Positions 11,847 through 28,187 of a stretch of 64,000 bases of DNA are shown here, piece after piece. This DNA comes from Gammaproteobacteria bacterium (GTDB lineage Bacteria > Pseudomonadota > Gammaproteobacteria > SZUA-229), in NCBI GenBank assembly GCA_026195895.1, contig JAPHRO010000026.1:62001-126000 (forward strand), read 5' to 3'. The notes below the pieces were generated by a model, which saw nothing but the letters and a program-made list of their open reading frames with translations, did no database searches and was not told where the DNA came from. The translations under genes and the position numbers were made by a program. Within the stretch, counting starts at the first letter, position 1; the number at the start of each line of letters is the position of its first letter.

Positions 11847-13004
11847 ATGCCCGAATTTACCACCCTGCCGCCTTTATCTATTTACATTCATATTCCCTGG
11901 TGCGTGCGTAAATGTCCCTACTGCGATTTCAATTCCCATGTTGCAGAAACCGCATTACCAGAAAAAGAATATGTTAACGCCCTACTGGAAGATCTGGAAC
12001 AGGTTTTACCTGAGATCTGGGGCCGCCGTATCATGTCAGTTTTTATCGGTGGCGGCACGCCGAGTTTATTTTCGCCGCAGGCAATCGATCAATTGCTAAG
12101 CGGTATCCGCGCACGACTGCAGTGCCTGCCCGGCATGGAAATCACTCTCGAAGCCAATCCCGGCACATTTGAGCAGATTAAGTTTAATGAATTCCGCGCT
12201 GCCGGTATCAATCGTTTGTCCATTGGCATACAGAGTTTTGACGACGAAAAGCTGCAGGCACTGGGCCGTATACATGACAGTAAAGAAGCGCTTGCCGCAA
12301 TGGAAACCGCAGTTAACGCCGGTTTTGAAAATATTAACCTGGACCTGATGTTCGGCCTGCCCGACCAATCGCAGCAACAGGGTATGGCCGATTTACAAAC
12401 CGCAATTGATCTTGGGCCGACACATATTTCCTGGTATCAGTTAACCATAGAACCCAATACCCTGTTTTATAACCAGCCGCCGCCACTGGCCAGTGATGAC
12501 GCCATCTGGGAATTACAGCAACAGGGGCAGGCGCTATTAGCCAAACAGGGTTTCGACCAGTATGAAATTTCTGCCTATGCAAAATCCGGCAACCAGTGCC
12601 AGCACAATCTGAATTACTGGCAATTTGGCGACTACCTGGCGCTGGGGGCGGGTGCCAATGGTAAAATTAGTCGCGCCGACGATCACAGCATCAAACGCTA
12701 CTGGCAATTAAGACAACCCCGCGAATACCTGCATGCTCAGCCTGCAGCCAGAACCTCAGGCCAGCAGTTGATCAACGAAGAAGAACGAATATTTGAGTTC
12801 ATGCTGAATGCGCTGCGCCTGAAGCGGGGTTTTGATATGCGTCTGTTTGAACAGCACACGGGAATGAACACGGCAGCACTCCAGTCTCCCATCCAGTCAG
12901 CCATTGAAAAAAACCTGCTGGAACAGAAAGAGCAGTGGCTCAGGCCAACAGAACTGGGTTATCGTTTCCTTAATGACCTGATCAACCTGTTCGAACCGAA
13001 CTAG
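11847..13004 (+). CDS. hemW: radical SAM haem chaperone HemW
   Basis: HemW is a radical SAM protein that binds haem and delivers it to respiratory enzymes; it was long misannotated as oxygen-independent coproporphyrinogen oxidase. The radical SAM motif is CVRKCPYCDFNSH near residue 19, with the fourth Cys position replaced by Phe in the form CxxxCxxCxF that is normal for HemW. GGGTPSLF, EANPGTFE, INRLSIGIQSFDD and the C-terminal HemN_C domain (EEERIFEFMLNALRL) follow. The 385-residue length is usual. It overlaps the convergent DUF4124 gene by four bases: the palindromic CTAG supplies the stop codon on both strands. A haem role fits the cytochrome-related neighbours and hemH elsewhere in the window. 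Confidence 0.93.
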   Translation: MPEFTTLPPLSIYIHIPWCVRKCPYCDFNSHVAETALPEKEYVNALLEDLEQVLPEIWGRRIMSVFIGGGTPSLFSPQAIDQLLSGIRARLQCLPGMEITLEANPGTFEQIKFNEFRAAGINRLSIGIQSFDDEKLQALGRIHDSKEALAAMETAVNAGFENINLDLMFGLPDQSQQQGMADLQTAIDLGPTHISWYQLTIEPNTLFYNQPPPLASDDAIWELQQQGQALLAKQGFDQYEISAYAKSGNQCQHNLNYWQFGDYLALGAGANGKISRADDHSIKRYWQLRQPREYLHAQPAARTSGQQLINEEERIFEFMLNALRLKRGFDMRLFEQHTGMNTAALQSPIQSAIEKNLLEQKEQWLRPTELGYRFLNDLINLFEPN

Positions 13005-13483
13005 GGCTTCGACTGCTGCATAAGACTGTCGAGTATTTTTTGCTGTTCGGCCGCTCTTTCATTCATCATGTTCGAAACATCTTTAGTATCCTGCATCAAA
13101 TCCCTGACCCCTTCTGGTGAATAAGGGTTCTTCCGGACACTGGTCACCTGCGAACCACGTTTCGCTTCCTCTTCTTCTTCCGGAACCCTGATGGCTTTAA
13201 CCACATTGGCATCGGGAGACAGCTTTACCGTATCGACCTGCGCCTGACCAACAGGAGGGGTACTGCTGAAGTGCTTCTGACCATGCTCATCCACCCATTG
13301 ATAGACGGTAACATTTTTATCTGTCACCGCATTACCCAGGCCTTCTATACCTTTCGACCGATCTTCTTTGGGCTGCAGAAAACTCTTTAAATCAAAACCG
13401 CCCATGGCTCCACCACCCAGCAGATAGGCGTATCCCCCACCAATAATGAGCAGCGGCAACAACATTTTAAATAACAATTTCAC
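13001..13483 (-). CDS. DUF4124 domain protein, membrane-anchored
   Basis: This 160-residue protein has an N-terminal hydrophobic segment (LLFKMLLPLLIIGGGYAYLLGGG, split by glycine) that serves as signal anchor, a linker, and a short DUF4124 domain (YQWVDEHGQKHFSSTPP, about residues 62-78), a beta-rich module common in gammaproteobacterial envelope proteins. The C-terminal half is charged and helical. Function is unknown. It converges on hemW with a shared CTAG stop, and its start faces the rpmE promoter region. Confidence 0.8.
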   Translation of the reverse strand: MKLLFKMLLPLLIIGGGYAYLLGGGAMGGFDLKSFLQPKEDRSKGIEGLGNAVTDKNVTVYQWVDEHGQKHFSSTPPVGQAQVDTVKLSPDANVVKAIRVPEEEEEAKRGSQVTSVRKNPYSPEGVRDLMQDTKDVSNMMNERAAEQQKILDSLMQQSKP

Positions 13484-13676: not shown

Positions 13677-13883
13677 ATGAGGCCAGAGATACACCCAGAA
13701 TACAAAGACATAGACGTAACATGCAGTTGTGGTAACACTTTTGCTACGCGTTCAACCTATACCAAAGAAGCGCTTCACATTGAAGTTTGCTCAAAATGCC
13801 ATCCGTTCTACACTGGTAAACAGAAAATTATGGATTCCGGCGGCCAGGTTGAGAAGTTCCGCAAACGTTTTGGTGGCAAATAG
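13677..13883 (+). CDS. rpmE: 50S ribosomal protein L31, zinc-binding type
   Basis: L31 joins the large subunit and bridges to the small subunit near the central protuberance. This 68-residue copy is the zinc-containing form: two Cys near residues 16-18 (TCSCGNTF) and [12 protein letters not shown] near 37-48, with the usual basic C-terminus (FRKRFGGK). The N-terminus reads MRPEIHPEY instead of the usual MK-x-x-IHP. It has a convincing promoter and ribosome-binding site. Zinc-containing L31 is often exchanged for a zinc-free paralogue under zinc shortage; no such paralogue is in the window. A strong terminator hairpin follows but lies inside the next reading frame. Confidence 0.97.
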
Positions 13884-13914
13884 TAAGTCTGCTACCAGAC
13901 GAGCATTGCAACCT

Positions 13915-14709
13915 GTGCATATTCAAAAAAGGACGCTACAGCTTGGCGTCCTTTTTTGTGTCTGGCTGCTTTCTACCCATGCCAGCGCCAACTGCCCTGC
14001 TTTCCAGATCCACGAAACGGCGACAGTCAAATCTGTGCATGACGGGGATACCATCAGGCTTAACGATGGCCGTAAAGTCCGCCTGATCGGCATCGACACC
14101 CCTGAACTCGCCCGCAACAACAAGCCCTCGCAAGCCTATGCTATCGAAGCCAGAAACGCGCTCAGCAAACTACTCAAACAGCATGACAACCATATCGGCC
14201 TGAGCTACGGCACGGAAAGGTTTGATAAATACCGCCGCACCCTGGCACACCTGTTCTTACCCGACGGCAACAACGTGCAGGATTTTTTATTGCGTAATGG
14301 TTATGCCACCGCCTACACCACCCCACCCAATGATCACATGGCCGATTGTTATCGCCGCTCAGAAGCCACCGCCATAAAACAGCGCCAGGGCATCTGGTCA
14401 CTAAATCAATACCAGATCAAATTGCCCGAACAACTCAAAACCAGTGAACAGGGATTTCGACGCATTCAGGGTAAAATCCAGTCTGTGCAACCGGGTAAGC
14501 AAGCCTGGTGGATCAACATGCCGCTAAACAATCGTCCGGGCATGATAAAAATTCGCATTGCAAAAAAAGACCTGCAGCATTTTGATTTACACAGCCTGCG
14601 CTTATTGCCCAATAAAACTGCCAGAATACGTGGCTGGTTGCACCCCAACAAAACCGGTTTCTTCATTAACCTGCGCCACCCTTCAGCACTCCTGGCTGAC
14701 CCCAAATAA
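13915..14709 (+). CDS. secreted thermonuclease (SNase) family protein
   Basis: The 264-residue product has a plausible signal peptide (basic MHIQKR start, hydrophobic LGVLFCVWLL, cleavage after THASA) if translation starts at GTG 13915; a TTG at 13906 is an alternative and no ATG exists nearby. The nuclease domain runs from about residue 35 to 170: VHDGDTIRLNDGRKVRLIGIDTPE carries the metal-binding Asp residues and the first Arg, followed by YGTERFDKYRRTLAHLFLPDG with Glu and the second Arg, and NGYATAY. A further beta-rich domain follows. It would degrade nucleic acid in the periplasm or outside. The signal-peptide codons contain the rpmE terminator hairpin, which may limit readthrough expression. 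Confidence 0.82.
   Translation: MHIQKRTLQLGVLFCVWLLSTHASANCPAFQIHETATVKSVHDGDTIRLNDGRKVRLIGIDTPELARNNKPSQAYAIEARNALSKLLKQHDNHIGLSYGTERFDKYRRTLAHLFLPDGNNVQDFLLRNGYATAYTTPPNDHMADCYRRSEATAIKQRQGIWSLNQYQIKLPEQLKTSEQGFRRIQGKIQSVQPGKQAWWINMPLNNRPGMIKIRIAKKDLQHFDLHSLRLLPNKTARIRGWLHPNKTGFFINLRHPSALLADPK
13925..13957 (+). terminator. terminator hairpin after rpmE, inside the thermonuclease 5' end
   Basis: A perfect 12-bp inverted repeat (AAAAAAGGACGC / GCGTCCTTTTTT) with a nine-base loop ends in six T, the classic intrinsic terminator. It lies 42 bases past the rpmE stop. It also falls within codons 4-15 of the thermonuclease as started at 13915, so it both ends rpmE transcription and encodes part of a signal peptide. 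Confidence 0.85.
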
Positions 14710-28155: not shown

Positions 28156-28187
28156 AAAAAGCCAAACTTTATGTTTGGCTTTTTTTT
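28156..28187 (+). terminator. intrinsic terminator of the DsrL-like gene
   Basis: AAAAAGCCAAAC and GTTTGGCTTTTT pair perfectly over 12 bases around a five-base loop and end in eight T. It starts 22 bases after the stop codon. Confidence 0.9.

Follow-up and report, generated by a model that had tools for sequence, protein, structure and literature searches.

A predicted rpmE terminator overlapping the putative signal-peptide codons of a nuclease gene in Gammaproteobacteria

Can one short stretch of DNA act as the transcriptional terminator of one gene and also encode the beginning of the next protein? The question arises between rpmE and a downstream nuclease gene in the window, by which we mean the whole 64,000-nucleotide stretch of DNA that was analysed. 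An earlier note had placed the hairpin that follows rpmE within the signal-peptide codons of the nuclease gene, and our analysis confirms this placement. The features concerned are as follows.

13677..13883, + strand: rpmE, encoding ribosomal protein bL31, 68 aa (Ribosomal_L31, PF01197, E 5.5e-33)
13906..13908, + strand: TTG, an alternative in-frame nuclease start (sequence reading)
13915..13917, + strand: GTG, the likeliest nuclease start, 31 nt past the rpmE stop, chosen by analogy with relatives
13915..13989, + strand: predicted nuclease signal peptide, MHIQKRTLQLGVLFCVWLLSTHASA (sequence, judged by eye)
13915..14709, + strand: predicted exported SNase-type (thermonuclease-like) nuclease (SNase, PF00565, E 2.7e-22)
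13925..13957, + strand: predicted rpmE intrinsic terminator hairpin, 12-bp stem with A6/T6, equal to nuclease codons 4-15 (sequence, fold and relatives)

The rpmE stop codon is TAG (13881-13883), and 41 nt separate it from the hairpin, AAAAAAGGACGC-TACAGCTTG-GCGTCCTTTTTT, which has a perfect 12-bp stem and six T, and which occupies codons 4-15 when the GTG at 13915 is codon 1. The protein read from this GTG opens with MHIQKRTLQLGVLFCVWLLSTHASA-NCP and continues into the SNase domain (79.7 bits against a cutoff of 21); judged by eye, the hairpin would encode the charged n-region and the start of the hydrophobic core of the predicted signal peptide. The nuclease frame has no stop through the hairpin and reaches back, still open, into rpmE. 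In the gap from rpmE to the hairpin the window offers no in-frame ATG, only GTG or TTG, one of which we infer to be the start, and no Shine-Dalgarno sequence is visible by eye before the GTG. At 33 nt, the hairpin has a minimum free energy of -17.4 kcal/mol (z -5.75; none of 200 shuffles was as good), and the predicted fold lengthens its stem to 14 pairs. A G+C-rich hairpin with a U-tract shortly past a stop codon has the makeup of an intrinsic terminator, and this one lies between the likely start and the stop of a single reading frame. Since it falls at codons 4-15, before the SNase domain, it is not a 3'-end terminator of the sort that leaves an active truncated form.

The hairpin pattern matches only once in the 3.33-Mb genome, which rules out a dispersed repeat, and membership of a known RNA family is ruled out by a best Rfam match of 20.3 bits against a gathering score of 57. 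A simple terminator scan of the window missed the hairpin, presumably because its T tract belongs to the paired stem. A strict scan gave 13 strand-wise matches in the window, none of the others lying in the 5' part of a recognisable gene; a minus-strand match (28156-28184) sits in a 110-codon open frame. The hairpin is near-symmetric, and 13924-13958 also scores as a terminator on the minus strand, on which we know of no gene that ends there. A DUF4124 protein is encoded just before rpmE (13001-13483, minus strand). A consensus promoter scan of the window listed no promoter upstream of rpmE, for which the earlier note had supposed a strong one.

Relatives were gathered by nuclease homology, blind to the hairpin, in four samples: 40 relatives (nuclease match in 30); 54 genomes of the window's order, all of one family (match in 50); 370 genomes drawn evenly from the class at a completeness of at least 90% (147 of which matched at E 1e-30); and, from the GTDB genome collection, the best 80 of 521 confirmed loci, by title nearly all from Gammaproteobacteria. 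The resulting 296 loci gave 295 nucleases, 263 of them distinct once 32 duplicates by nuclease DNA had been dropped. The counts that follow are not independent, as the loci share ancestry. The rpmE gene lies directly upstream on the same strand in 221 of the 263 distinct loci, the remaining 42 including some broken by contig ends; one junction shorter than 60 nt was dropped, leaving 220 for scoring. Both of our hairpin detectors are simple. The strict one found hairpins in 183/221 junctions, 169 of them inside the nuclease frame, and the loose one in 196/220, with 184 inside; we prefer the loose detector because the strict one missed visible hairpins.

By the loose detector, the 196 rpmE-nuclease junctions with a terminator-like hairpin compare with 18.7 expected from dinucleotide shuffles, and in 184 of the 196 the hairpin lies wholly inside the nuclease frame. 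Overlap is not obligatory: in 24/220 junctions this detector finds no terminator, and in 12/220 the frame does not span the hairpin (8 begin after it and 4 overlap it partially). In the class sample of 147 genomes, 98 have the hairpin inside the frame with a preceding ATG, GTG, or TTG and 8 have it inside the frame without one; in 7 the nuclease frame starts within or after the hairpin, in 17 rpmE adjoins and no hairpin was detected, in 13 rpmE is not upstream, and 4 are broken by contig ends. The nuclease is held by 72 families of this sample, and 52 of them show overlap with an upstream start. The overlap is thus found class-wide in Gammaproteobacteria, whereas the earlier note had treated it as a local curiosity.

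The stem itself appears to have been maintained. For covariation we aligned 31 relatives, nearly all of the window's family, blind to pairing (31 of the 32 listed references, with 12 long junctions and the near-duplicate L125 left out). Pairing is kept in 94.5% of the cells; 7 of 13 stem pairs show changes on both sides, and 27 cells are compensatory, where shuffles average 6.7 and slid pairing registers give only 4-6. The earlier claim that one sequence is under two constraints, terminator and signal peptide, is well supported by relatives through the overlap counts, this covariation, the spread over families, and the enrichment of start codons described below.

To which of its two neighbors does the hairpin belong? 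It starts a median of 29 nt past the rpmE stop (first to ninth decile 21-47 nt), a spacing that may be compared with a system in E. coli, where a terminator that follows a stop codon by more than 27 nt is reported to work at full strength, with no repression by the stop-bound ribosome (PMC4824070); by this analogy, the median spacing would lie near the limit of ribosome repression. The hairpin occurs in only 2/35 nucleases without rpmE upstream, and in 6/13 rpmE loci without the nuclease (taken from 30 of 106 matching genomes) it is found about as far from the stop (median 25 nt); in the remaining 7 the detector finds no hairpin. We therefore read the hairpin as going with rpmE, most clearly where the nuclease follows. 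Were it instead a regulatory or stability element of the nuclease mRNA, separate from rpmE termination, its position in the 5' part of the nuclease gene would be explained, as would the 7 rpmE loci that lack both nuclease and detected hairpin; its scarcity in nucleases not behind rpmE, its retention at the 6 other rpmE loci, and the conserved U-tract speak against such an element, to which we give hardly any weight. Nucleases not behind rpmE include L067, L079, L085, L094, L105, and L110; by eye, several of this kind carry a DUF4124-like segment, YxWxDxxGxxHFSD, between signal peptide and SNase domain.

The second question is where nuclease translation begins. The 184 junctions were chosen for a nuclease frame open through the hairpin, with no start codon required, and were then searched in each frame for a start codon within 45 nt before the hairpin (two lay at its first bases) that is open through it. 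An ATG is present in 100/184 in the nuclease frame as against 4 and 3 in the other two frames, and an ATG, GTG, or TTG in 167/184 as against 22 and 24. Stops alone cannot explain this enrichment, because the other frames, followed from 15 nt ahead of the hairpin as far as its last base, contain no stop in 94 and 137 of the 184; a stop falls inside the hairpin in 54 and 18 of the 184 in the two unused frames, and in none in the used frame by construction. Since the enrichment of ATG is specific to one frame, the nuclease start would generally lie upstream of the hairpin. In the 100 ATG cases it lies a median of 11.5 nt past the rpmE stop, and the distance from it to the hairpin is 5-24 nt in 78 of them; L006, MRNIKKALFIGAFFYAGTISA, and Pseudomonas L058, MGFCQLLKKASLVGAFFVSAIWLSAAQA, are examples. 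Fusion of rpmE and nuclease by frameshift is ruled out as a general rule by loci in which the nuclease frame begins at, just after, or barely before the rpmE stop (L010, L014, L018, L020, and L025).

If the nuclease instead started downstream, the open frame through the hairpin would be accidental. Five loci (L016, L106, L290, L291, and L295) have a downstream ATG and a frame beginning within or after the hairpin, and 17/184 lack an ATG, GTG, or TTG before the hairpin in the nuclease frame (L008, L014, L140, L182, L195, and 12 others); these 17 may begin at less common start codons, or within the hairpin or beyond it. As a general account, a downstream start seems very unlikely to us, given the one-frame enrichment of ATG and the positive charge that the hairpin supplies ahead of the hydrophobic core, with an early Lys or Arg in 97/100 ATG cases. 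The earlier note had offered two options, that the nuclease is made only by readthrough or that it starts elsewhere. The one-frame ATG enrichment favors the first, and the second would hold in a minority of lineages, the 7/147 class-sample genomes in which the frame begins within or after the hairpin. One of the exceptions is Shewanella L106, with a start after the hairpin, a Shine-Dalgarno-like stretch, and 271 nt between the rpmE stop and the nuclease domain; L016 and L291 represent further lineages with such a start. As far as their sequences tell, these exceptions show that the overlap can be resolved, and they are good comparison strains. In genus g11 of the order sample, 193-334 nt separate the rpmE stop from the nuclease domain (L016, L021, L135-L137, L141, L143, L145, L146, L149, and L151), the start having perhaps moved away from the hairpin; by eye, the extra stretch of L021 contains a near repeat with several ATG codons.

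The coding content of the hairpin fits a start upstream of it. The reading frame through the hairpin differs between lineages, with products of the KKAL..AFF or the KKGA..RLFL type; the T-run begins in phase 0 in 74 loci, in phase 1 in 85, and in phase 2 in 25. In the alignment called A2 (columns 83-85), the loop is 3 nt shorter in 16/31 rows, and those shorter-loop rows whose translation was seen read in the KKGA..RLFL-type frame, not KKAL..AFF. Whichever of the three frames of the 184 hairpins is read, the first three codons give Lys or Arg in 45-57% and the last three a hydrophobic residue (Gly included) in 78-91%. We take this as the reason why the overlap is tolerated: every frame of the hairpin tends to read Lys/Arg, then Phe/Leu. 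The signal peptides were assessed from the pattern of charge and hydrophobicity only, by which 94 of the 100 ATG cases have a net charge of at least +1 before the most hydrophobic 10-residue window, and in 72 that window overlaps the hairpin; the 97 cases with early Lys or Arg have it within the first four hairpin codons. Codon choice, too, seems to bear the mark of the terminator. TTT serves for 237/290 Phe codons in the hairpin (TTT:TTC 237:53) against 657/1213 elsewhere in the same genes (657:556), with the ratio 12:10 against 18:91 in genes of GC3 >0.85, and 32:5 against 103:29, a small bias, in genes of GC3 <0.4. Because TTT is favored in this way, the hairpin Phe codons seem to be shaped by the U-tract, an effect that is clearest in G+C-rich genes. 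Among Lys codons, AAA is not favored there (AAA:AAG 129:79 in the hairpin, 1118:636 elsewhere).

From these lines of evidence, we consider it probable, with good confidence, that the hairpin acts as the intrinsic terminator of rpmE and at the same time forms the 5' end of the nuclease gene, encoding the n-region and early core of its signal peptide; the sequence comparisons support a start codon upstream of the hairpin and the retention of both readings. The terminator and the signal-peptide code would then be the same bases, and with the start upstream of the terminator two consequences would follow: a full-length nuclease mRNA, from any promoter, must have read through the terminator, and a terminated rpmE mRNA would carry the nuclease start codon without a stop. 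An internal promoter would offer no escape, as a transcript that includes a start upstream of the hairpin still crosses it. Most polymerases would halt at the hairpin, yielding abundant rpmE message, and a minority would read through, giving passively a low, fixed fraction of nuclease message. An A-tract, a G+C stem, and a U-tract tend to read Lys/Arg then Phe/Leu in any frame; a signal peptide is laid out in the same way, and for that reason the fit of terminator to signal peptide may be an easy one. When a terminator was placed 30 bp behind a start codon in E. coli constructs, translation is reported to have cost it only ∼10% of its efficiency, and expression of the upstream reporter to have dropped to about half, an effect ascribed to stopless RNA (PMC4824070).

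The nuclease starts themselves look weak. A Shine-Dalgarno energy of -4 kcal/mol or lower was found for 9.6% of the 167 pre-hairpin nuclease starts (16/167), as compared to 75% for rpmE starts (n = 182) and 27% for random coding windows (n = 552). It was found for 7/25 nucleases without rpmE upstream, a modest contrast with the 16/167 (p 0.016) between starts that were picked differently (the nearest ATG before the hairpin, or failing that GTG, then TTG; the last ATG in the controls), and for 3/10 where the frame begins within or after the hairpin. Such a weak start, with little Shine-Dalgarno sequence and often GTG or TTG, would limit translation of the stopless rpmE 3' end.

Instead of passive readthrough, the overlap might be a regulated attenuator: a ribosome re-initiating at the nuclease start, or loading there directly, would cover the 5' arm and block the hairpin, the polymerase would proceed, and nuclease output would report rpmE translation or ribosome supply. 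The geometry would allow it, with the ATG close behind the rpmE stop and, in those 78 of 100 cases, within a ribosome footprint of the hairpin. Moreover, nearby ribosomes suppress a terminator in E. coli (PMC4824070), and bL31 is described as repressing its own mRNA in gamma-proteobacteria (PMC10931766). Against this stand the mere ∼10% loss with a start codon 30 bp before the terminator (PMC4824070), the little Shine-Dalgarno sequence of the nuclease starts, and the lack of a conserved antiterminator: RNAalifold, run on the 31-sequence alignment with columns from the rpmE stop onward, predicts the hairpin alone. We regard an attenuator as unlikely, and a ribosome-controlled switch as possible but unsupported. 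Also doubtful is a bolder proposal, that across Gammaproteobacteria the rpmE terminator is a translation-sensitive switch set in a signal peptide, at which initiating or re-initiating ribosomes decide polymerase passage and tie the periplasmic or secreted nuclease to bL31 and ribosome status, and that intrinsic terminators in general are a ready source of signal peptides, A-tract then U-tract tending to give Lys then Phe in every frame.

The favored reading, passive readthrough of a terminator that is also signal-peptide code, can be set beside known systems. Intrinsic (Rho-independent) terminators share the A-tract, G+C stem, and U-tract, mostly 21-47 nt past the stop; here, in contrast, the entire element also encodes the N-terminus of the next protein. 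The ribosome-rescue genes arfA and brfA are described as having an intrinsic terminator inside the coding frame (arfA also an RNase III site), which likewise gives RNA without a stop codon, but there the terminator removes the end of the gene and the truncated product works (PMC8012679), whereas here it lies near the 5' end, is the upstream gene's own, and on truncation would leave a short peptide only. Lambda tR2, 30 bp past the NinA start codon in plasmid W48, is also a terminator just after a start, but in a plasmid construct with phage sequence, and its description as available mentions neither a signal peptide nor class-wide conservation (PMC4824070). Many E. coli RNA 3' ends are reported to lie inside reading frames, suggesting premature termination there as well (PMC7815308). 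In leader-peptide attenuators such as pyrBI, a translating ribosome similarly reaches a terminator, there in a separate short leader frame (PMC4824070) and here in the structural gene itself; the conserved alternative structure of such attenuators is missing from the prediction for our 31 sequences. Among titles and abstract openings in the open-licence literature, we recognised no paper describing the rpmE-terminator/nuclease arrangement, which does not prove it unpublished. Nor did we find an open-licence paper on PA5048, which we take to be the tag of the Pseudomonas nuclease, or on rpmE together with thermonuclease and terminator.

In this widely conserved case, a single short piece of DNA appears to end one transcript and to begin another protein, and expression of a gene would depend on the failure of its neighbor's terminator. 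Stopless RNA is predicted at the end of the rpmE message, so that readthrough, re-initiation, and ribosome rescue become testable at a natural site common to many bacteria, including Pseudomonas species. Gene callers may misplace starts of this kind. The arrangement also suggests a route by which export signals arise from terminators.
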